Of a stretch of 64,000 bases of DNA, positions 3,541-16,785 are shown one piece after another. Both the position numbers and the translations under genes were made by a program. The notes below the pieces were generated by a model. That model did no database searches, was not told the DNA's origin, and was given only the letters and a program-made list of their open reading frames with translations. The DNA lies in the NCBI RefSeq assembly GCF_014858005.1, contig NZ_JACYOT010000001.1:62001-126000 (forward strand), written 5' to 3'. The stretch is from Propioniciclava soli (lineage in GTDB: Bacteria > Actinomycetota > Actinomycetes > Propionibacteriales > Propionibacteriaceae). Positions within the stretch are counted from its first letter, which is position 1. Each line of letters opens with the position of its first letter.

Positions 3541-4190
3541 GGCGCGGGCCTCAGCCGAGGTCCACCACCTCGTAGCTCCACAGCTCGGCGCTGAGACCGA
3601 CGGGGCGTGGGGTGGGGGACGCGGTCGGGTGCTCGCCGAACGCCGTGGGGGTCGATTCCGCGGCCGGGGAGACCCCACCGTGCTGGCGGGACAGCTCGGT
3701 GTCGCGTCCGCCGTGGGCGCCGCGGAAGTTCGAGGAGTTCATCCAGCCCTGGAACGACTCCTCGTCGCGCCAGCGCGTGAGGACGAGCCAGACGTGACGA
3801 TCGGCGTCCAGCGGCTTGAGGAGCTCGAACCCCTCGAACCCGTCCTGGCCGTCGACCGCTCCGGCGCGCTGGGCGAACCTGTGGGCGAGTTCGTCTCCGC
3901 TGTCGGCCGGGACGGTGATGGCGTTGATCTTTGCGATGGTCATGGTTGCCAGCGTGGCTCGATACTCTGCTCCGTTCAACCGCCCCCCACGGATTCTGGC
4001 TCTCAGACCAGCTTCGAGGCGGAAGTTGATTAGTTCAATTCGGTGACTCTCAGGAAGGGTGTCGGTGACCCGTTAGCGGTTGGCTTCGCTGTTGTGGCTG
4101 TAGCCGTTGTCCTGGGTGAAGCGTTGGAAGAACGCGGCCGTGGCGTCGCGGTGGGTGTGGGCGTAGGGCCGGAAGGTGCCGTCGGGCCAG
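3422..4190. repeat. Inverted repeat arms (3422-3540 and 4073-4190)
   Basis: The plus-strand sequence at 3422-3540 is nearly identical to the reverse complement of 4073-4190, the 3' end of the S-layer gene. Differences are a handful of bases, for example GGCTTCTCC against GGCTACAGC near the end. The enclosed ~530 bp hold only the monooxygenase gene at 3551-3943. No transposase or terminal target duplication is visible, so inversion or recombination between surface-protein gene copies is the simplest explanation. Confidence 0.75.
3551..3943 (-). CDS. Antibiotic biosynthesis monooxygenase-family protein (HmoA/MhuD-like)
   Basis: A 130-residue ferredoxin-like-fold protein of the ABM family. The N-terminal MTIAKINAITVP strand, the segment GFEGFELLKP and the strand VWLVLTRWRDEESFQGWMNS are typical of heme-degrading monooxygenases of the HmoA/MhuD type, which cleave heme to release iron. 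The start is ATG 3943, where family similarity begins, although the open frame extends 12 codons further upstream. A Pro/Thr-rich stretch precedes the C-terminus (SELWSYEVVDL). No clear iron-regulator box is seen upstream. The gene sits between the arms of the SLH inverted repeat. Quinol monooxygenase is an alternative role. Confidence 0.75.
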   Translation of the reverse strand: MTIAKINAITVPADSGDELAHRFAQRAGAVDGQDGFEGFELLKPLDADRHVWLVLTRWRDEESFQGWMNSSNFRGAHGGRDTELSRQHGGVSPAAESTPTAFGEHPTASPTPRPVGLSAELWSYEVVDLG

Positions 4191-6934
4191 CCGGTGGTGA
4201 TGTCGTGCTCAGCCGCCCAAGAGATCTCGGCGTAGAACGGATCGGTGGGCGCCAGATCGCGGAACGGTGACACCGTCGGTGGGGCGTACTCGGGCGAGCC
4301 GGAGTAGCGGTAGAGGAACGCCATCATCGCGTTGCGGTCGATGGGCGCGGTGGGTCGGAACGTCCCGTCGGGCCAGCCGGTGGTGACGCCCTCGTTGGCG
4401 GCCCACACGATCGCGGCGTAGTGCTCGGTCGCGGGGGTCACATCAGCAAAGGGTTCGGTCAGCCCGGCCACGGACGGCGACCCGGCCGCCCGGTACAGGA
4501 ACGCGGCCATGGCGTCGCGGTTCACCGCGGTGGCGGGCCGGAACGTGCCATCGGGCCAGCCGGTCGTGAGGCCGGCGTTCTTCATCCACACGATCGCGTC
4601 GAAGTGCTCCGTCCCGACCGGCACATCGCCGAACGGCGGCACTGCGTCCGCGCAGGGCAGCGCGCCCGCCCGCAGCGCGCCCGGCTGCTCGCCATCGGCG
4701 AACCACCACGCGGGGCGGACGCCGTCGGTGCAGAGGTCGGCCGTGGCGGTCGCGAAGCCCTCGTTGTTGAGGTTCGGCATGGACGCCGGCCGCTCGACGT
4801 GGACCAAGCCGGGGGCGTCCGTGCCGTTGAACGTGATCTGCGTCGCCAGACCGTTGCAGCCGTTGTCGCACACGGCCCACAGCACGCCGAGGTCGGTGTC
4901 CCAGTCGAGCGCCATGACGCCCCCCAGGGAGGGGATCGTCTCGCTCACCCGGGCGAACGTGCCGTCGGCGTTCAGCGCGTAGCCGTACACGTGGCCGTTG
5001 GTCTCGAGCGCCACGAAGAACAGGCCGTCACCGTGGCCGGGGTGATCGGCCGGGTCGTACGGCTTGCCGAGCGCGTCGTCCCACAGGACGCCGGCGAGGT
5101 CGGCGTCCGCCACCCACTCGACGGCCTCGAGGCCGGTGTTGGCGGACACGTCCGGCAGGTCGGCGGTGAGATCCCACTCCTGGGACGCCACGATCGTCGC
5201 GCCCGCGGCGTCCGGGTCGATCTGCAGCACCTTGTTCAGGTTCACGCCCTTGGCGTTGTTGACGCGCTCGACGGCCACGTACAGGGACCCGTCGCCCGAC
5301 ACCGTGATGCCCTCGGCGTCCGGACCCGCGGGGCCGGTGCCGGCCTGGAAGCGAATGTTCTTGCCGTTCTCCCAGCCCTGGGCCAGCGCGAAGGAACCGT
5401 CGGCGGCCACGTGGGACTTGAAGATCGTGCCGGCGTCGTTGTCGACGCCCCACAACACCGAGCCGTCGTCGGTGTGCTCGACGTCGAGGCCGGAGGAGTC
5501 GGCCAGGAAGGTGGCGGTGGTGTCGAGGACGGTCACGTCCGGCGAGCCGGGCCAGGTGATCGTGTTGATGGGCGTCTCGGGCTCCGGATCTTCCGGGATG
5601 ACGCCGTCGCACGCGTTCGGAAGGCCCTTGGTGGAAGCGATCTGGTCGACCATCGGGCCGGTGGTGTCGGGGCAGCGGCCGATCGAGACGGCGGCGTGGG
5701 CCGCCCAGGCGGACTCGGCCACGACCGTCCCGTTGGCGTCCCGGACGCTCGCCACGTCATTGGCGCCGAGGCCGAACGAGAAGTGGGTGCCCTGGTCGAA
5801 GACGAAGTACGCACCTGCCCCGAGCACGGTGCCGGACGGCAGCGGTGCGGTCTGCCCGGCGTGGCCGAAGGGGTCGTCATCCATGACCGTCCAGCCAGAG
5901 AGGTCGATCGGCGCGTCGGAGGCGTTCACCACCTCGACCCAGTCGGTGGCATCGCCGTCGGACTCGATCTCGTTGATGACGATGCCGCCGGGGCAGTCGT
6001 TGAAGCCACCGGAGGTGGTGTACGTGACGACCCACTCCTCACCAGTGACGTTCGGGCAGCGGGAGAAACCGGCGACGGCTTCGTCGCCACCGATGGCGGG
6101 GTGCGCCGTCCAGCTGAACGACTGGAGCGCGCTGGCCGGGTCGAAGGCCGTCTCGCCGGGGCCGAAGAGGTGCACGGAATCTGCGCCGCCGAGACCGAAG
6201 GTGAACGTCCCGCCGTCCACGACGAGGTAGCCGCGCGCCGGGACGGTGGTGCCGGCCGGGAACGCGTAGCGGTGCGTCTCGTCGTTGGGGGCATTGTCGG
6301 TGAGCACGTAGCCGCCGATGTCGAGGGGCTGGGTGCCGGTGTTGAAGAACTCCACCCAGTCGAGCGGGCCGGAGTCGACCTCGTTGAGCACGAGGTTGCT
6401 GGGGCCGACCTGTTCGACGTCGCAGTCGTTCGGCGCGCCGAGGGTGACGCTGTTGGCCTGGAGGAAGTCGCCGGTGCCGTCCGGACAGCGCGACCAGCTG
6501 GGCAGGGAGTGGGAGGCGAACGTGTGGGCGTCCACCACGGTGGTGCCGTCGGGGAGGTAGAGCCGAGCGGCATCGCCGTTGCCCAGGCCGAAGGTGAACC
6601 CCGGCGTGCCGTTCTGTGTCAAGACGAGATAATCCCCGGCACCGATCACGGTGCCCTCGGGCAGGGCGTCGATGCGGGTGTCGTCGTCGTCCTTGATGAG
6701 CCACCCGGAGACGTCCACGGGATCCGTGCCGGTGTTCGTCAGCTCGATCGCGTCGGCCAGGACGGGATCGTTGGTGACGATCTCGTTGATGCGGATGCTC
6801 GTCTCCGCCGCGTGGGCGTCCGGCTGGCCGGTGGGTGACAGCAGGGTTCCGGCGGCCAGGAGTGCCGCCGCCCCGGCCAGGGCAGTGAACCTGCGGGACG
6901 TGGACGGCTTCCGCTCAGACAGCATGGCTGTCAT
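4073..6934 (-). CDS. Secreted S-layer-anchored protein: lamin-tail x3, phytase-like propeller, SLH x3
   Basis: A 953-residue cell-surface protein. Start ATG 6934 (or 6925) gives a Sec signal peptide with a hydrophobic core and a DAHAAE cleavage region near 35; the longer open frame to 7174 overlaps the next gene and is not used. Three lamin-tail domains follow, each opening with a NEI or NEV strand (RINEIVTND, LNEVDSGPLDWVEFFNTG, INEIESDGDATDWVEVVN). A beta-propeller region from about 450 to 770 resembles the esterase-like/phytase-like family. Three C-terminal SLH repeats, each with GWPDGTFRP, anchor it to secondary cell-wall polymer. Lamin-tail domains often accompany secreted nucleases and phosphatases. 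The enzymatic role of the propeller is inferred only. The 3' end is duplicated in inverted form at 3422-3540. Confidence 0.85.
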   Translation of the reverse strand: MTAMLSERKPSTSRRFTALAGAAALLAAGTLLSPTGQPDAHAAETSIRINEIVTNDPVLADAIELTNTGTDPVDVSGWLIKDDDDTRIDALPEGTVIGAGDYLVLTQNGTPGFTFGLGNGDAARLYLPDGTTVVDAHTFASHSLPSWSRCPDGTGDFLQANSVTLGAPNDCDVEQVGPSNLVLNEVDSGPLDWVEFFNTGTQPLDIGGYVLTDNAPNDETHRYAFPAGTTVPARGYLVVDGGTFTFGLGGADSVHLFGPGETAFDPASALQSFSWTAHPAIGGDEAVAGFSRCPNVTGEEWVVTYTTSGGFNDCPGGIVINEIESDGDATDWVEVVNASDAPIDLSGWTVMDDDPFGHAGQTAPLPSGTVLGAGAYFVFDQGTHFSFGLGANDVASVRDANGTVVAESAWAAHAAVSIGRCPDTTGPMVDQIASTKGLPNACDGVIPEDPEPETPINTITWPGSPDVTVLDTTATFLADSSGLDVEHTDDGSVLWGVDNDAGTIFKSHVAADGSFALAQGWENGKNIRFQAGTGPAGPDAEGITVSGDGSLYVAVERVNNAKGVNLNKVLQIDPDAAGATIVASQEWDLTADLPDVSANTGLEAVEWVADADLAGVLWDDALGKPYDPADHPGHGDGLFFVALETNGHVYGYALNADGTFARVSETIPSLGGVMALDWDTDLGVLWAVCDNGCNGLATQITFNGTDAPGLVHVERPASMPNLNNEGFATATADLCTDGVRPAWWFADGEQPGALRAGALPCADAVPPFGDVPVGTEHFDAIVWMKNAGLTTGWPDGTFRPATAVNRDAMAAFLYRAAGSPSVAGLTEPFADVTPATEHYAAIVWAANEGVTTGWPDGTFRPTAPIDRNAMMAFLYRYSGSPEYAPPTVSPFRDLAPTDPFYAEISWAAEHDITTGWPDGTFRPYAHTHRDATAAFFQRFTQDNGYSHNSEANR

Positions 6935-7037
6935 CAAAGCTTGGGCGGGTGAGGGGCCGGTGTCGCGCGGGTGAACAGCCGGCCAACCGGAGTGATGGCT
7001 CGATGGGGTGGGAGCTCCGGACGCCTCTGGACGCGGC

Positions 7038-7068
7038 GACGCGCCCGGCTCAGGTGAGCGGGCGCGTC
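7038..7068 (-). terminator. Hairpin downstream of the 7101-7490 gene
   Basis: GACGCGCCCGGCTCA pairs with TGAGCGGGCGCGTC through a 14-bp stem with one bulged base and a 2-nt loop, 32 bp after the stop of the minus-strand membrane gene. No U-tract follows, as is common for actinobacterial terminators. It probably separates that gene from the S-layer gene downstream. Confidence 0.55.
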
Positions 7069-7100
7069 GGGTCGGTCGGGGGCGGGGATGGCCCCGGTGG

Positions 7101-7490
7101 TCAGCGGTGGTCGACGGGGGCGTCGACGGTGCGCGCCGCACCGGGCTTGCGGAACGCCAGGGTGGCGAGCGCAATGATGCCGATGAGGTAGATCACCCCG
7201 AAGATCTGGTGCACGAGCGTGAGGTGCAGGTGCCCGAGCACGATCTGGAGGACGCCGAACAAGGTCATCCCGAGCGCGTGCCACAACAGGCCCCGGTTGC
7301 CACTCTGCCGCGACCAGATGAACGCGGCGATGGCTCCGATGGCGGCGAACGTGGTGGTCGCCTCACCCATGCGGGGGTGCAGCGGCCACGGGCCGGCCCA
7401 GCCGAAGCCGGTGAACAGCTGGTAGAGGGCGATGAGGGCGGCCAGGACGGCCGCGATGCGGAGCAGGACGAGAGACCAGTGTGACTTCAT
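7101..7490 (-). CDS. Small four-helix integral membrane protein
   Basis: A 129-residue protein starting at ATG 7490 (MKSHWSLVLLRIAAVLAAL). Four hydrophobic segments are visible at about 8-25, 45-62, 70-92 and 96-112, the last two including LHLTLVHQIFGVIYLIG. No catalytic or ligand motif stands out. The layout resembles small DUF-type membrane proteins of actinobacteria, but I cannot name the family. It is divergent from the small gene at 7875 across a 384-bp gap, and is followed by a hairpin before the S-layer gene. Confidence 0.7.
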   Translation of the reverse strand: MKSHWSLVLLRIAAVLAALIALYQLFTGFGWAGPWPLHPRMGEATTTFAAIGAIAAFIWSRQSGNRGLLWHALGMTLFGVLQIVLGHLHLTLVHQIFGVIYLIGIIALATLAFRKPGAARTVDAPVDHR

Positions 7491-10138: not shown

Positions 10139-11095
10139 TCAGCCGCAGCGCTCGACGGCGGCGGTGAGCTCGTCATCCTTGAGCACCGTCGAGAACCCGG
10201 CGGGCACCGCCGCGCACACCGCGGCCGCGTCGCCGGCGTACTCGATGTGGAACACCGCCTTGCCGTCCGCCAGCATCGGGGCGTACGCGTCACACTCGGC
10301 GTACGCGACGCACTCCTCGTTCACCGCGAAGTCGACGACGCCGCCGAGTTCGGGCAGCACCTCCACGGCGTTCTTCAGCCCGAGCGAAAGGCCCCGGGCA
10401 TGAGCGGCCTCGGCGAGGGCCCGCACATAGGCCACCGTGTCGCCCCGCGTCAGGTCGAACCCCGTCTCGGCGCCGTACCCGTCGACGTTGTCGGGGTCGA
10501 CCGCGTCGAATCCCTTGGCTGCGCAGGCGTCCAGGCGCGCGGTCATGATCGGGAGCAGCACGTCGAGCTGGCGGGTGTCGAGCCAGCGCTCGCCCTCCCA
10601 GTCGTCGAGGGGTTCGCCCAGCACGGGGGCGGGAAAGGCGTCGGCGTCGGAGCGCCAGTCCTCCCAGCCGCCGGCGTTCACGTAACAGATCGTCCGTGCC
10701 CCGGACGCCTCCGCCGCGGCCACCCAGTCGGCCGGGGCGTCCTCACCGTCGACGTCGTAGACGCCGACCCCCGGCTCCAGCGCGGGCATCTCGGCGTAAG
10801 CGATCTGCCAGGGGGCGCCCTGCTCGGGAGCCCAGACCTCCGGCGTCGCCCCGGCCGTCTCCGCTGCGGGCGAGGCCGACGGCCCGCCCGAGGCTGCGAC
10901 CGGTGCTGCGGTGTCGGCCGGGGTGGGCGCGGCAGGGGATGTCGGGTGGGCACGGCGGGCGTCCGGGGACGCCGGTCCGGCGCTCGCGGCCGCGCAGCCC
11001 GTCACCCCGCAGCCCGCGATCGCGAACCCCGCGATCGCGACGAGCGCGACGACGAGCCGGGTGGGGGTGGAGCCGGCGCGCCGGGGGTGGGTCAC
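10139..11095 (-). CDS. GH114 endo-alpha-1,4-polygalactosaminidase-like lipoprotein (Ega3-like)
   Basis: A 318-residue secreted glycoside hydrolase. GTG 11095 overlaps the upstream stop as GTGA and follows GGAGG. The N-terminus has a positively charged start, a hydrophobic core and a lipobox (AIAGC), so it is probably a membrane-anchored lipoprotein, then a Pro/Ala/Thr linker. The catalytic TIM-barrel carries the GH114 signatures CYVNAGGWEDWR, ERWLDTR, FDAVDPDNVDGY, LGLKN and NEECVAYAECDAY. Characterised relatives (fungal Ega3, the hydrolase domain of PelA) cleave alpha-1,4-galactosamine polymers. Last gene of the five-gene operon; it probably trims or releases the polymer made by its neighbours. 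Confidence 0.9.
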   Translation of the reverse strand: MTHPRRAGSTPTRLVVALVAIAGFAIAGCGVTGCAAASAGPASPDARRAHPTSPAAPTPADTAAPVAASGGPSASPAAETAGATPEVWAPEQGAPWQIAYAEMPALEPGVGVYDVDGEDAPADWVAAAEASGARTICYVNAGGWEDWRSDADAFPAPVLGEPLDDWEGERWLDTRQLDVLLPIMTARLDACAAKGFDAVDPDNVDGYGAETGFDLTRGDTVAYVRALAEAAHARGLSLGLKNAVEVLPELGGVVDFAVNEECVAYAECDAYAPMLADGKAVFHIEYAGDAAAVCAAVPAGFSTVLKDDELTAAVERCG

Positions 11096-11742
11096 GGCCA
11101 CGCCTCCGGCAGCCGTGCATAGGGGTTGGGGAGGGTCGCATCGGTGACCCACACGAACGCCGCCCCGCGGCGCGCCGCGACGTCGCGTGCCGCCGTGATG
11201 TCGGCGAGGGGCACGCCGTGCACGAGGTGCCACGTGGGCCCGGCGGCAGGGCGGTCCGGCCAGGCCAGACCGGCGTAGGTGCTCCACGCGCACTCCGACA
11301 CGCAGGTGACGTCGGCTGCCGCCACGACCTCCGGCGCGCACGGTGCCCCGGGATTCAGCGCCACCTTCGTCGCCCCGTCGGCGCGCAGGGCGCCGATGAG
11401 CTCCAGCGTGGTGCTGGGCGCGTCGGTGCTCACGCAGTCCAACATCACGCCGCTCACCCCGTACCGCTCGCGCCACGTGGCGGCGTCGCGACGGACGGCG
11501 TCGGCGTCCCGCTGCCCGTACCCGGTGTTCACGTACCCGAGCAGCGGCGTCCGGATGCCGGGGCGCAGGGCCTCCGTGTAGTAGGGGTCGCCCTCCGGGC
11601 CCGGCCCGCTGGCCACGTTGACCACGGCGAATGCGAGGCCGAGCGGACCCTGCCGGAGGAACTCCCAGGCCGTGGGGTGCTCGGCCGGGTGCAGGTAGAA
11701 CGGCGCCGCCAGCTGGGGCCCGTCCGGTGTCAGGGTCACCAT
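11092..11742 (-). CDS. Spherulin-4 family glycoside hydrolase (Sph3-like)
   Basis: A 216-residue TIM-barrel protein of the spherulation-specific family 4 (Sph3/GH135 type). Signatures are APFYLHP, AFAVVNVASGPGPEGDPYY, LGYVNTGYGQRD, YGVSGVMLDC and KVALNPGAP. Sph3 of Aspergillus hydrolyses galactosaminogalactan during synthesis. ATG 11742 overlaps the stop of the membrane gene by 7 bp, and the 3' end overlaps the GH114 gene, so it is translationally coupled on both sides. No signal peptide is seen, unlike secreted relatives. The acidic residue usually following the LD of the DGIFLDE-type motif is Cys here (MLDCVSTD), so activity is uncertain. Confidence 0.85.
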   Translation of the reverse strand: MVTLTPDGPQLAAPFYLHPAEHPTAWEFLRQGPLGLAFAVVNVASGPGPEGDPYYTEALRPGIRTPLLGYVNTGYGQRDADAVRRDAATWRERYGVSGVMLDCVSTDAPSTTLELIGALRADGATKVALNPGAPCAPEVVAAADVTCVSECAWSTYAGLAWPDRPAAGPTWHLVHGVPLADITAARDVAARRGAAFVWVTDATLPNPYARLPEAWP

Positions 11743-13016
11743 GCGCTCGGGGAGGCGTGGCGCGACGCGCCGACCGCGGTGGTGAGAACGAGACTGGCCG
11801 CCATCCAGGCACCGTAGCGCACGGCGTCGGTCGAGCCGTCGGCCAGCCAGACCGCGGCCGCGAGGGTGGCCATGCCGGCCAGGCACATGAGGGCGGAGGT
11901 GGGCGCGTGCCCCGAGCGCAGCAGGATGGACGCCGCCGCCGTCAGTGCCGAGACGGCGATGGCCGCGGTGGCCAGGGGCACCGTCCACGGCAGGCCGAGC
12001 ACGGCGGCCGTGGCCCAGCCCGTGAGCTCGCCGACCCCCGTGACCGCCCAGACCGCGAGCACCCCCACGGTGCCGCTGGCCCACAGGGCGATGCGCCAGG
12101 TCGTCGACACCGAGGCCACGCTGCGCGCCGAGCGGGCGCAGAACTCGTGCAGGGGGTCGGCGGCGGCCGACGCCAGCAGGCCGGCGGTGGCGATCACGAT
12201 GAACGCGGGCCCGAGCCGGCCGAACAGCAGGGCCAGGATGCCGAGCAGGGCCGCGACCTGCAGGGTCGTCCAGCCGACCGAACGGGTCAGGGCGGGCGTC
12301 CAGGCGGGAGCGGCACCCCCGGCCCGGCGGGCGAGCACGAGCAGTGCCCAGCCGGTGGCGCCGGCGATGACGGCGTAGGCCACCGCACCGTCGAACCGGG
12401 TGCCCGGCAGGGCGAGCCCGGTCAGCGACAGTGCGGCCCCCGCGGCGACGATGCCGGTGAACCGCCAGCCGGCGAGCAGGCAGGTGCCCACCGCCCCGAC
12501 GACCCCCCACGCCGCCCAGGCGACGATCGCCGGCTGGGCCCAGGCGAGAGCGACCACCGCGCAGCACACGACCACCGCGATCGCGAGCCGCAGGGCGGTG
12601 GCGGACGCCGCGGCGAGCCGCCCCTGCCCCAGCCCCCACCACAGGACCGCGCCGAGGATCTGCCCGCCCAGCCAGGACGCCGCCCCGGCGGCGAAGACGG
12701 CGGGCGGATGGTCGCCGTTGGCGAGGGTCATGACGCAGAGCACCACGCCACCCAGCAACGCCAGCGCGCGGGCGATGGCGGGCGCGAGGCCCGCCGCGGG
12801 TCGGGGCGTCACCACGGCGCCGTGCCCCTGGTCGGCCAGCAGATGCGCCGCGTGGTCGAACGCGTCGTGGTAGCCGGCGCGGATGGCGTGGGCGTCCCCG
12901 AACCCCTGGGACTCGAGCCGCGCCGTGGCGTCGAACACGTCGACCGACCCCGCCACGGTGGCCGGAATGCTCGCCCACGCCTCCCCCGGCGTGCCGGTGT
13001 AGCCGCTGGCGCTCAT
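11736..13016 (-). CDS. Polytopic membrane protein of the exopolysaccharide operon
   Basis: A 426-residue protein starting at ATG 13016 (ATGA overlap with the GT4 gene). About 75 soluble residues (MSASGYTGTPGEAWASIP) precede roughly 11-12 hydrophobic segments, starting near 84. Size and topology match the place of PelG in bacterial Pel operons, or the membrane half of fungal Gtb3, but the sequence is very Ala-rich and I see no diagnostic motif. Coupling to the glycosyltransferase suggests a synthase-export pair moving the polymer across the membrane. Alternative: a MATE/MOP-type flippase. Confidence 0.7.
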   Translation of the reverse strand: MSASGYTGTPGEAWASIPATVAGSVDVFDATARLESQGFGDAHAIRAGYHDAFDHAAHLLADQGHGAVVTPRPAAGLAPAIARALALLGGVVLCVMTLANGDHPPAVFAAGAASWLGGQILGAVLWWGLGQGRLAAASATALRLAIAVVVCCAVVALAWAQPAIVAWAAWGVVGAVGTCLLAGWRFTGIVAAGAALSLTGLALPGTRFDGAVAYAVIAGATGWALLVLARRAGGAAPAWTPALTRSVGWTTLQVAALLGILALLFGRLGPAFIVIATAGLLASAAADPLHEFCARSARSVASVSTTWRIALWASGTVGVLAVWAVTGVGELTGWATAAVLGLPWTVPLATAAIAVSALTAAASILLRSGHAPTSALMCLAGMATLAAAVWLADGSTDAVRYGAWMAASLVLTTAVGASRHASPSAW

Positions 13017-14533
13017 GCCGGCTCCAAAACGGTGGCGGCGGCCCGGACGCCCCCCGCCCGGTCGGGCACGAGGGTTGCCACGCGCGCCGAGACGGCCCGG
13101 GCCGCAGCATCGTCGTACACCGCGCGGTAGGTGTCGGCGAACACCTGCAGCGAGAAGACCTCGAGGGCCCGCTCCCGCGCTGCCAGCCCCATGGCATGGC
13201 GGGCGTCGGCGTCGGTCAAGAGGGTGACGAGGGCGTCCGCCATCGCTGCGGGCTCGCGCGGCGGCACGATGAGCCCGGCGGCGCCGTCGCGGCCCGTGCA
13301 CTCGGCGACGCCACCGACGTCGGTGCTCACGGTCGGGCGGCCCTGCATCATCGCCTCCAGCACGGTGAAGGGCAGCCCCTCCGAGATGGACGACAACGCC
13401 ACGACCTGCCCGGCCTCGATGGCCGGACGCGCCGAGGGCGCCGGCCCCTCGAAGGTCACCACCTCGCCCAGCCCCAGCAGCGCCACCTGCTCCACGAGCG
13501 TGGCGTGGTAGGCCTCGTTGCCCGCCGGTACGGGGCCGAAGAGGCGCAGCCGGGCGTCCGGCACCCGCGCCATGACGAGGGCGAACGCGTCAATCAGGGT
13601 TGCCAGGTCCTTCAGCGGGTCGATGCGGCCGACGAAGCTGACGACCGGATCGGCGGGCTCGCTCTCCAACATCGGGAACAGGGAGGGGTCGACGCCGTTG
13701 TACACCGGTTGGATGCGCTCGGGGTCGGCGCCGAGGCGGGTCTCCCAGCGGCCGTTGAAGAAGTTCACGGGCGCGATGATCTCGGCGTCGGTGTAGGCCA
13801 GCGTGCACACCGAGCGGAGGAAGGCCAACAGCACGTACCGGACGTTCCACGGCCACCCGGCCGCGTGCAGGGCCAGGTAGCGCTCGCGCAGGAACACGCC
13901 GTGCTCGGTGAGCAGCAGCGGCGTCCCGGTGCGCCAGTGGCGGGCCAGCGCCATGAGCGCGGCCGGGCCGTTCGAGGTGGCGTGGATGACGTCCACCTCG
14001 GGCCAGTCGGCGTCCATGAGGGCGAGAGCCCGGTCGGCGTGCACGGCCGCGGCGGCGGCGTCCGACGCCGTGAGCGCCGGTGTGCCGGGCACGTGGACGC
14101 GGTGGGCCTGCCAGGCCTCCAGGATCGGACGGGTGGAGCCGGTCTGGGTGAGCAGCCAGTCCAGCGCCTGGTAGCTCGGCACGGCCAGCCGGCCCAGCGC
14201 GTCGCGGAGCCGGTCGATGTTCTCCGGGTCGGCGGGGTTGCTGGGCAGGACGGCCGCCCACAGGTCCCGCAGTGCCTCGCGGGTGCGGCGGAGCTCGCGG
14301 CCGGTCGTCCGGGGTCGCCAGGGGCGGGTGCCGACGTGTGCGTCCCACATCGGCACGCACGTCGTCGAGGCCACGTTGGCCGGGGCGTCCCACACCGGGG
14401 TGCGCTCCAGCCCGACGATCGTCACCACGTCGAAGGTGTGTTCGGGCAGGTGGGTGAGCAGCTGGTCACACCAGGTGCTCACCCCTCCCTTCGCCACGGG
14501 GTAGGTGCCCTCGTTCAGCAGTGCGATGCGCAT
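13013..14533 (-). CDS. PelF-like GT4 glycosyltransferase
   Basis: A 506-residue cytosolic glycosyltransferase starting at ATG 14533, 2 bp after the deacetylase stop. The N-terminus NEGTYPVAKGGVSTWCDQLL is the PelF signature. The nucleotide-sugar domain has NGVDPSLFP, VSFVGRIDPLKDLATLIDAF and the GT4 E-x7-E motif in SEGLPFTVLEAMMQGRPTVS. PelF of Pseudomonas polymerises GalNAc/GlcNAc from UDP-sugars; fungal Gtb3 plays the analogous role in galactosaminogalactan synthesis. Expected product: a GalNAc-containing exopolysaccharide. No nucleotide-sugar epimerase is encoded nearby. Confidence 0.9.
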   Translation of the reverse strand: MRIALLNEGTYPVAKGGVSTWCDQLLTHLPEHTFDVVTIVGLERTPVWDAPANVASTTCVPMWDAHVGTRPWRPRTTGRELRRTREALRDLWAAVLPSNPADPENIDRLRDALGRLAVPSYQALDWLLTQTGSTRPILEAWQAHRVHVPGTPALTASDAAAAAVHADRALALMDADWPEVDVIHATSNGPAALMALARHWRTGTPLLLTEHGVFLRERYLALHAAGWPWNVRYVLLAFLRSVCTLAYTDAEIIAPVNFFNGRWETRLGADPERIQPVYNGVDPSLFPMLESEPADPVVSFVGRIDPLKDLATLIDAFALVMARVPDARLRLFGPVPAGNEAYHATLVEQVALLGLGEVVTFEGPAPSARPAIEAGQVVALSSISEGLPFTVLEAMMQGRPTVSTDVGGVAECTGRDGAAGLIVPPREPAAMADALVTLLTDADARHAMGLAARERALEVFSLQVFADTYRAVYDDAAARAVSARVATLVPDRAGGVRAAATVLEPA

Positions 14534-14535
14534 GG

Positions 14536-16785
14536 TCAGCGCCCCGCTGCGACCTTCGGCGCGGTTGCCGGTTCGTGTGCCGACTCCCCCGCCATCGGCT
14601 CCTCGGGGGCCAGCGGCGCCTCGGTGAGGACGGGGAGCTCGACGGTCGGCTCCTGCGCCTCGACCGCCGGGTTCGGCGTGGCGACGGGCACGTCGGGCAC
14701 GACCGGCCAGACGACCGACGTGGCGTACCCGCTCGCCGCGGGCAGCGTCAGCGTGAGCGTCTGGCCCGCGGGGACGCTGCGGGCGCCGGACGCCTGCCCG
14801 CCGTAGCTGGGCATCGTCCAGGCCGTGCGTCCCACCGCCGCCTTCGTGCCCGCGGGGGCGGTGGCGGGCACCGTCACGGCGCTACCGGCACGGTTCGTCA
14901 CCGTCACCTGCTGACCGGAGAGCGTCGCCGAGATGCTCGCCTGCTGGGTGGGCCAGGTGCTCTGGCGCAGCAGCTCCGTCCCGGCCTCGACCATCGTGGG
15001 GTTCACCACCGGTGCGTTCGTCGCGAACAGCGCCTGGTACCGGGTGAGGATCTGGTCCACCACCGGGTAGAGGATGCGCTCCCCGGCCAAGTTGGACTGG
15101 TGCGCATAGTGCGGCCGGGGGTCGTTGGCGAGCACGTGGCCGAGGTCGATGCGCGCCTCGAGCGGCGCGATGTAGCTGTCGTACCCGGTGGCGAGGTCGA
15201 GCGGGGCGATGCACGTCGTCGTCTCCGGGTGCGCCTCGCAGTAGCCCGAACCGCCGTCGGCCGCCGCCGTGTACATCCAGTTGTACTCGTCGGCCATCTG
15301 CTGCTTCGTGGCGGCGTTGTAGAACACGGCCATCGGGTAGCGCGGCACCGTGGTGGCCGGCCCGATCGTCCGCACCGTCGATTCGCGGGAGTTGTCCGTG
15401 GCGATCCAGGCGATCTTCTGCTGGGCCAGCGCCGTCGCGAGGTTGGGGTTGTCGTTCGGCATCTGCGGCAACGCGCGGATGCCCGAGTGCTCGCCGGTGA
15501 CGAGCGCCTTGGCGTCGTAGTTGGGCAGCAGGTTCCACTGCGCGTAGCTCTTGTTCTTGCCGATCTCGGAGTTCAGGGTCGCCAGCGACGTCCACGCCAC
15601 GGCGCCGGTGGCGTCCGTGCCGCACTGCCACGTGCCGAGGGCGGTGTAGTTCTGCGTGCAGCCCAACCACGGGTGCGACCAGGTGTGGTTGATCCAGCGG
15701 AGCTGGTACTTGTTGAGCAGCAGTGCCATCTCGAGCGGGTCGATCAACGTCTTGTGGTCGTTCTTGTACTCGGTGGCCCCGAACCCGTTGTAGACCATGT
15801 CGAGCTTCACGCCGGTCCGCTTCTGCCAGGCCAGTAGCGCCGTCACGTCGGCCTTCGTCATGCGGACGGTCGCGCCCGGCCCCTCGGGCGGATACACGGC
15901 CGGGTCGCAGTCGTCACCGATGGTGCAGTTGCCCTCGACGCTCCACAGGCTGTCGGGCAGCAGGACGTCGTCGATGTGAACGCTGAGGTAGTTGCGCGAC
16001 GTGCCCAGGGTGACACCGCGGGTGAGCCACGCCACGATGCCGTGCGCGAGCACCTGGAAGTGCGCCTGGTGGCGGTTGGACGCGAACGTCGTGACCAACT
16101 GCTCGCGGCCGTCGTGGGTGAAGACGCCGAGCAGCGAGCCGGCCTCGGCCGAGCCCGGGATCGGCGCGGTCACGAGCGGCGTGAATGAGGTGGTGGCCGT
16201 CGGGGCCAGCGGTGTGGCCAGATAGCCCCAGGACTCGTCCACGCGCGGGTCGAGGTCGTCGAGGGTGAACGTGCCCTTCAGGTAGCGGAAGTCGGCGGCG
16301 AGCGCGGCCGGCGTCACGGTGGCGGTCAGCCCGTCGACGGCCCCGACGTAGCCGGGGTTGGCGGCGTAGTTCAGGCCCACCTCGGGGTGCGCCCACGTGT
16401 AGGCCGCCACCTCGCGGACGCCGAACGTGCGCTCGTACTGGGCCAACACCTGCCGCTCGGCCTCGCTGAGCTGGCTGGGCGCCTCGTTCGGCGCGACGAC
16501 GCCCGAGAACTGGCCGTGCGCACCGGCGGCGTCCGTCGTCGCGAGGAAGTCGGCGGTGAGCGTCGGCCGGTCGGCCGCGTTCAGGTCGACCACCGTGGTC
16601 GGCTGCCCCTCGGACGCCAGCCGCGCCGCCAGGGCGGCGACCATGGGCTGGCCGTCGTCGAGCACGAGCACGTTGAGCCGAATGTCGGCGCGGACGGCCG
16701 TCGCGGCCGTGGCCGGCGCAGCCGCACCGGCGAGAAGAATGATGATCGAACCGACCAGTCCGCCCCAGACGCGGACGCATGACAT
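14536..16785 (-). CDS. Agd3-like (CE18-type) secreted polysaccharide deacetylase
   Basis: A 749-residue secreted protein. From ATG 16785 it has a signal peptide (hydrophobic core VGSIIILLAGAAAPATA). GTG 16794 is an alternative start closer to the GGGGGGAG ribosome-binding site. An N-terminal domain (about 40-250) precedes the catalytic region, where HIDDVLL (His270, Asp272, Asp273) and NHTWSH (His367, His371) form the Asp-His-His metal site expected of CE4/CE18 deacetylases. HYAHQSN lies further on, and a beta-rich C-terminal domain ends in a Pro/Glu tail. The layout fits Agd3, which deacetylates GalNAc in galactosaminogalactan. It is the first gene of the operon. Confidence 0.75.
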   Translation of the reverse strand: MSCVRVWGGLVGSIIILLAGAAAPATAATAVRADIRLNVLVLDDGQPMVAALAARLASEGQPTTVVDLNAADRPTLTADFLATTDAAGAHGQFSGVVAPNEAPSQLSEAERQVLAQYERTFGVREVAAYTWAHPEVGLNYAANPGYVGAVDGLTATVTPAALAADFRYLKGTFTLDDLDPRVDESWGYLATPLAPTATTSFTPLVTAPIPGSAEAGSLLGVFTHDGREQLVTTFASNRHQAHFQVLAHGIVAWLTRGVTLGTSRNYLSVHIDDVLLPDSLWSVEGNCTIGDDCDPAVYPPEGPGATVRMTKADVTALLAWQKRTGVKLDMVYNGFGATEYKNDHKTLIDPLEMALLLNKYQLRWINHTWSHPWLGCTQNYTALGTWQCGTDATGAVAWTSLATLNSEIGKNKSYAQWNLLPNYDAKALVTGEHSGIRALPQMPNDNPNLATALAQQKIAWIATDNSRESTVRTIGPATTVPRYPMAVFYNAATKQQMADEYNWMYTAAADGGSGYCEAHPETTTCIAPLDLATGYDSYIAPLEARIDLGHVLANDPRPHYAHQSNLAGERILYPVVDQILTRYQALFATNAPVVNPTMVEAGTELLRQSTWPTQQASISATLSGQQVTVTNRAGSAVTVPATAPAGTKAAVGRTAWTMPSYGGQASGARSVPAGQTLTLTLPAASGYATSVVWPVVPDVPVATPNPAVEAQEPTVELPVLTEAPLAPEEPMAGESAHEPATAPKVAAGR

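Follow-up and report, generated by a model that had tools for sequence, protein, structure and literature searches.

In the 64,000-nucleotide stretch of Propioniciclava soli DNA analysed here (contig NZ_JACYOT010000001.1, positions 62,001 to 126,000; the window), we found a five-gene operon that, with a probability of roughly three in four, serves to make a partially deacetylated alpha-1,4-N-acetylgalactosamine (GalNAc)-type exopolysaccharide and works like Pel and the fungal galactosaminogalactan (GAG) pathway. Protein families, the fold of the modelled deacetylase, conserved residues, gene order and the presence or absence of leaders are observed and form the basis of this reading; the identity of the polymer itself we infer. 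The genes lie on the minus strand at 10139-16785 and are transcribed in the order deacetylase, glycosyltransferase, membrane protein, spherulin-4 hydrolase and GH114 hydrolase; the four junctions measure +2, -4, -7 and -4 base pairs (bp).

14536..16785, minus strand: Agd, predicted Agd3-type polysaccharide deacetylase of 749 amino acids (aa), with a hydrophobic N-terminal leader and CBM87-like, CE18-like and beta-rich domains; gene ends read from the sequence, 2-bp gap to the GT4 gene.
13013..14533, minus strand: PelF-type GT4 glycosyltransferase, 506 aa, no leader and so predicted to be cytosolic; ATGA, 4-bp overlap with the membrane protein gene.
11736..13016, minus strand: polytopic membrane protein, 426 aa, with an N-terminal helical domain and 12 long helices in a MOP-superfamily-like model; 7-bp overlap with the Sph gene.
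11092..11742, minus strand: Sph, spherulin-4/GH135-type hydrolase, 216 aa, leaderless, with D102 and E150; GTGA, 4-bp overlap with the GH114 gene.
10139..11095, minus strand: GH114 endo-alpha-1,4-galactosaminidase-type lipoprotein, 318 aa, GTG start, lipobox-like IAGC; last gene of the operon.

An earlier reading made from the letters alone (the sequence-only reading) had proposed five coupled minus-strand genes with these four junctions, and the gene ends bear it out. The overlaps suggest that the five genes are co-translated.

The deacetylase was assigned by several routes. A 15-row profile of the protein matched Agd3 (6nwz) at E 2.8e-21, in two stretches, and a Pfam search of 22 deacetylase homologues at E 0.01 found Agd3_CE in 14 and CBM87_Agd3 in six of them. 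The AlphaFold model of the window protein (predicted local distance difference test, pLDDT, 82.2; predicted template modelling score, pTM, 0.81) has Agd3 as its best match in the PDB (E 1.6e-28, TMt 0.71, 768 alignment columns), followed by human NDST1 and then PelA. It has the three-domain build of Agd3, with an N-terminal alpha/beta/alpha CBM87 domain, a CE barrel and a C-terminal beta domain. The catalytic motifs (CM) of Agd3 were located at D272/D273 (CM1), H367/H371 (CM2), R467 (CM3, assigned by position without superposition) and H562 (CM4); the HIDD and HTWSH stretches pointed out in the sequence-only reading are indeed present, at residues 270-273 and 367-371. All six residues are invariant in 22 aligned rows, and in 15 more diverse rows D272, D273, H367, H371 and H562 are again invariant (15/15) while R467 varies. 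The base, metal ligands and acid of Agd3 catalysis have been described (PMC7229062, excerpt), and all of these are kept in the window protein, but the Met of CM4 is not. Taken together, profile, homologues and model show the protein to be, by prediction, an Agd3-type deacetylase.

Family searches confirmed the PelF-like GT4, the Ega3-like GH114 hydrolase and the Sph3-like hydrolase that the sequence-only reading had named. The GT4 scores 167.1 bits with NF038011 (PelF; equivalog cut-off 100) and 155.2 bits with PF11997 (cut-off 23.3). For the GH114 protein, PF03537 gives 259.5 bits (cut-off 27) and phmmer finds Aspergillus Ega3 (6oj1) at E 6e-54; DPDN and VNE stretches, which probably hold the catalytic Asp189 and Glu247 of Ega3, are common to both proteins. 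Sph reaches 72.3 bits with PF12138 (Spherulin4; cut-off 30.2), a match that makes it GH135-type by Pfam family, and phmmer matches it to Sph3 (5c5g) at E 1.1e-6. In the alignment with Sph3, its D102 and E150 fall on the catalytic Asp and Glu, and both residues are present in all 63 operon proteins compared. The aligned Glu is Glu222 of Sph3, and we take the aligned Asp to be the Sph3 nucleophile, presumably Asp166. In print, the Asp appears as Asp196 (PMC12054363, excerpt).

The sequence-only reading had asked for a neighbourhood survey, and the operon proved to be conserved elsewhere. Scanning one genome per species with the deacetylase gave at least 592 matching stretches, 584 of them confirmed relatives. 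Loci were counted from the best 80 named of these matches, 70 of which carry Streptomyces in their titles; 67 have at least 9 kilobases (kb) downstream of the deacetylase gene, and the 13 with less were left out. All five genes occur in the same order and on the same strand in 49 of the 67 loci, and a chance grouping of the five genes was rejected on this ground. Complete operons were also present in Dermacoccus (L075), Kitasatospora (L100), Actinacidiphila (L093) and Dactylosporangium (L142). Across the class, 23 of 296 genomes, from 7 of 115 genera, contain spherulin-4, and none of 14 control genomes does. We fetched 27 regions around Spherulin4 matches, which cover 28 of the 37 matches; a PelF-type GT4 is present in 26 of them, the exception being a 5-kb contig, and the deacetylase in 19, with a fragment in one more. 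Five stretches from large-genome relatives (L066, L067, L068, L069 and L070) hold GT4, membrane protein and spherulin-4 genes, and an Agd3-type gene was not detected in the 19-kb stretch; perhaps these represent a second operon type.

The membrane protein is the component that sequence families leave without a name. It has zero Pfam or NCBIfam matches at E 1, and 24 homologues yield single stray matches only. In its model the small helical domain (residues 10-62) is confident and the 12 long helices are less so. Foldseek places WzxE and MATE proteins on top, weakly, with a best E of 1.4e-2. With the VIA aligner, 41 of the first 42 rows are named MATE, DinF, ClbM, Aq_128, WzxE or MurJ, the other being called 'protein A'; their Z scores lie between 15.5 and 8.8, with 278-339 residues aligned in almost every case (142 in one MurJ row), and the first unrelated rows, designed helical bundles, follow from Z 8.6. 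Since the arrangement of the helices can by itself lift unrelated helical models to Z 13-14, the assignment rests on the near-unbroken run of a single superfamily and not on Z. The protein thus likely adopts the 12-helix fold of the MOP superfamily (MATE/Wzx/MurJ). PelG is a 12-helix member of the same superfamily (PMC13254593, excerpt). PelG (PF16933) has no match in the Propioniciclava genome, and Thermotoga maritima matches among the 14 control genomes. Because the modelled fold resembles that of PelG, though PF16933 is lacking from the genome, we infer that the membrane protein is the probable exporter of the polymer, a functional counterpart of PelG from another sequence family. The alignments of this protein comprise 24 of 28 non-redundant homologues (A2) and 20 of 24 plus L123 (A3). 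Its N-terminal helical domain (window 12831-13016, minus strand; pLDDT mostly 74-92) carries invariant residues and is perhaps a docking site for the GT4.

These likenesses to Pel raise the question whether the locus is a divergent form of a true Pel operon of the pelDEADAFG type. The GT4 passes the NCBIfam equivalog cut-off for PelF and the membrane protein models with the fold of PelG, and yet we consider this very improbable. PF16933 is found nowhere in the genome, and a canonical Pel operon was rejected on this ground. Moreover, the deacetylase is of the predicted Agd3 type, whereas PelADA of Bacillus cereus founded CE26 and PelA of P. aeruginosa belongs to CE21 (both from excerpts), and the hydrolase is a GH114 and not a GH166 enzyme. 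Genes for PelD or PelE are not named beside the operon in annotated relatives, although no search was aimed at PelD or PelE. Compared with Gram-positive Pel, as described in the excerpts of PMC7112168 and PMC13254593, the operon shares a PelF-type GT4, a probable MOP-type exporter (here by model) and a secreted three-domain deacetylase; it differs in having no PelG by sequence, a deacetylase of another CE family, and additional GH114 and spherulin-4 hydrolases. The sequence-only reading had counted the PelA hydrolase as GH114, which needs correction: its hydrolase domain founded GH166 (PMC12054363, excerpt). On a plasmid of Pseudoalteromonas sp. THAF3 (L167, 5884-12398), a stand-alone GH114 gene adjoins a pel operon with pelG, pelF and PelD genes.

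By prediction, the leaders of the operon proteins sort the two hydrolases to different sides of the membrane. A leader was scored as a Kyte-Doolittle mean of at least 1.6 over 15 residues, and alternative start codons were tried as far upstream of the domain as 60 residues for GT4 and Sph, 70 for Agd and 90 for GH114. A leader-like stretch was available in 74 of 80 Agd and 47 of 56 GH114 proteins and in none of 74 GT4 and 62 Sph proteins; raising the threshold to 2.0 left 37, 42, 0 and 0, respectively. The window Sph is without a leader as well; its start overlaps the membrane protein gene, and its upstream frame lies within the latter. The fungal counterpart Sph3 is membrane-bound and believed to act extracellularly on the polymer as it emerges from Gtb3 (PMC12054363, excerpt), and by sequence prediction neither its anchor nor its extracellular location is found in the window Sph or its 62 homologues. 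Being leaderless, Sph is therefore expected to work in the cytoplasm, unlike its fungal relative. The acetylated form of GAG is the substrate of GH135 and the deacetylated form that of GH114 (PMC11356417, excerpt), so that the leaders would place both hydrolases on the sides expected for these forms of the polymer. The chances are evenly balanced that the system is built on two compartments, with Sph acting inside on acetylated polymer beside PelF, the GH114 lipoprotein outside on deacetylated polymer, and a MOP-type exporter of a nameless family between them. If this is true, Sph would serve inside the cell to terminate chains or to clear them, a role that it does not have in fungi.

A pathway can be proposed from these parts. 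The PelF-type GT4 would polymerise uridine diphosphate (UDP)-GalNAc in the cytosol, the precursor coming from a galE-type epimerase elsewhere in the genome; a galE match above the cut-off was found on another contig (C64), and a UDP-glucose/GlcNAc 4-epimerase (uge3) is absent among the five operon genes. The MOP-like membrane protein would export the chain, and the secreted Agd3-type enzyme would then remove acetyl groups outside and render the polymer cationic. At the cell surface the GH114 lipoprotein may cut deacetylated stretches, while the leaderless spherulin-4 enzyme may cut fully acetylated, unexported chains on the cytosolic side. The cationic GalNAc-type polymer of the sequence-only reading is thus kept as the best guess, on the strength of one conserved operon of Agd3-, spherulin-4/GH135-, GH114- and PelF-type proteins.

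Several observations weigh against the GalNAc-type reading. One or more of the downstream genes are missing from 18 of the 67 loci, so the five are not always needed: seven are without GH114, as in Kocuria dechangensis (L076), three without spherulin-4, as in Streptacidiphilus (L136), three end after the membrane protein gene, one has only spherulin-4 and GH114, and four have none downstream on that strand. The window deacetylase is about 17% identical to Agd3. On its own it has no family match above the cut-off in Pfam or NCBIfam (a heparan sulfate N-deacetylase match stays below it), matches neither Agd3_CE nor CBM87_Agd3 in Pfam at E 0.01, and finds no PDB chain with phmmer at E 1. In the profile alignment, its Tyr560 takes the place of Agd3 M666, the Met of CM4; mutation of M666 abolished activity, and the residue is called highly conserved, not universal (PMC7229062, excerpt). 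The CE18/CBM87 assignment of the sequence-only reading accordingly holds for the profile, the model and the main catalytic residues, and fails for the CM4 Met and for a Pfam match of the window protein itself. Immediately following the aligned nucleophile, all 63 Sph proteins have Q, R or C, where Sph3 has Glu. The model of the membrane protein is of medium confidence (mean pLDDT 65.7), with Foldseek TM values of 0.3-0.4 and zero matches at E 0.001. The donor sugar of the GT4 is not fixed by its sequence, and the papers and excerpts consulted report neither a purified activity nor a polymer for a bacterial operon of this type.

The last points leave room for a different aminosugar polymer of the cell wall or capsule, for example one rich in N-acetylglucosamine (GlcNAc) or mixed from GalNAc and hexose, in which case the likeness to GAG and Pel would be one of enzyme families only. 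Such a polymer gains some weight from the fact that the specificity of the GT4 cannot be read from its sequence. Moreover, the gap between the membrane protein and spherulin-4 genes is at least 2 kb in 27 of the 56 loci that hold both and smaller in 29, and where its content was inspected it encodes an SDR/LegB-like dehydratase, a sugar nucleotidyltransferase and an NAD(P) oxidoreductase, so that a special sugar may be used in that form. The window operon, however, has none of these three extra genes, and the characterised relatives of GH114, spherulin-4 and Agd3 act on alpha-1,4-linked galactosamine or GalNAc polymers in the excerpted literature. We therefore regard a different polymer as unlikely and retain the GalNAc-type product. 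The long form of the operon can be seen after the membrane protein gene on plasmids of Streptomyces californicus (L165, 12667-17510) and Deinococcus aquaticus (L164, 3189-7471); its three extra genes suggest a modified sugar.

Operons of this kind are not unreported, contrary to the sequence-only reading. Bamford et al. (2020, PMC7229062) described bacterial agd3 in or near operons with a glycosyltransferase, a multi-spanning membrane protein and, with high consistency, GH114, and with spherulin-4 in some Actinobacteria; such operons were taken as support for a transfer from bacteria to fungi, an idea raised in 2016 (PMC4817252, excerpt). The Agd3-type deacetylase, cytoplasmic glycosyltransferase, multi-spanning membrane protein and GH114 of their section 13 and Fig. 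8 legend are common to the operon studied here, and nothing essential differs. The words PelG, flippase and Kocuria do not occur in the main text of that paper, and its section 13 is silent on an exporter fold, on leaderless spherulin-4 and on plasmids. In the excerpted literature we found nothing on the exporter fold of such operons or on a leaderless or cytosolic spherulin-4. While the kind of operon is already known, what is new is the likely exporter fold, the predicted cytoplasmic siting of spherulin-4 and a patchy, plasmid-borne module. For Streptomyces, galactosamine polysaccharides of the cell wall have been reported, as has an endo-galactosaminidase of S. griseus (PMC7229062, excerpt).

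The operon is distributed patchily. Deacetylase matches at E 0.001 occur in eight of 245 genomes of the order, two of them being short C-terminal matches without an operon, and in none of the six congeners of this sample. All 13 genomes of the genus, including two that are only 72-73% complete, have some GT4, and the full PelF-type protein is present only in the window genome (1124.6 bits to itself; congeners score 75.7 bits or less, over part of the protein). Among the loci compared, Dermacoccus is the nearest kin for four of the five proteins and ranks second for spherulin-4. Kocuria and two genomes of the family are the runners-up for four of the proteins; the deacetylase ranks Kocuria and one genome of another family above those two. 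The genes therefore share their kin largely, not strictly. In Kocuria rosea RP1, the five-gene module lies on a mobilizable plasmid (NZ_CP126484.1; L163, 7708-16776) and is flanked by two oppositely oriented copies of one transposase (WP_284563886.1), resembling a composite transposon. An acquisition of the operon by transfer would agree with this picture. No empty site was found in the congeners, where the upstream neighbour has matches of 28-71%, the best at a contig end, and the downstream regulator has many paralogues.

The sequence-only reading had also suggested that the operon might be the source, or a relative, of the fungal pathway. It is clearly a relative, a distant one. The fungal GAG cluster (uge3, sph3, ega3, agd3, gtb3) has Agd3, spherulin-4, GH114 and a polymerising glycosyltransferase in common with it. 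In contrast to the bacterial operon it includes the epimerase uge3, its Gtb3 is called an integral membrane glycosyltransferase where the operon has separate glycosyltransferase and membrane proteins, and its Sph3 is anchored where the operon enzyme is leaderless (PMC12054363, excerpt, for Sph3). Ega3 is 35-46% identical to operon GH114 proteins, the exceptions being G018 (28%, partial) and the Deinococcus aquaticus plasmid (27%), and 43% identical to those of Vibrio and Pseudoalteromonas. In a 33-row GH114 tree, Ega3 belongs to a five-row group, itself open, whose other members come from Vibrio, Burkholderia, Pseudoalteromonas and Fusarium (support 82/69). A trimmed tree of 27 rows, without the long or partial sequences of G018, Thermus, Deinococcus aquaticus, D. 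ficus, Phyllobacterium and S. angustmyceticus, leaves 13 of 24 inner branches open. A position of Ega3 inside the 20-row actinobacterial operon set was rejected on this tree (approximately unbiased test, AU, p 0.007), while neither a clade made up of the operon set alone (p 0.17) nor a grouping of the two fungal rows (p 0.37) was rejected. With one gene and only two fungal sequences, both partial, this tree cannot decide where the fungal cluster came from, yet it does not favour this operon as the source, and that part of the earlier suggestion finds no support.

The genes adjoining the operon on both sides lie on the plus strand, so the operon stands alone; by eye, they encode a CbiX-like chelatase beside the deacetylase gene and a LuxR-type response regulator beside the GH114 gene. 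Elsewhere in the window, at 4073-7174 on the minus strand, a very long open reading frame with repeated lamin-tail-like stretches and three C-terminal SLH-like repeats (again by eye) probably encodes a cell-surface protein.

Sticky galactosamine-type polymers of this sort are components of mould and Pseudomonas biofilms, and the operon bears on how fungi gained their GAG cluster. If our reading is correct, it would offer a leaderless spherulin-4 enzyme and a nameless exporter family for testing. Moreover, a Pel- or GAG-like cationic matrix polymer would then be a common trait of streptomycetes and their relatives, and one that is able to ride on plasmids.

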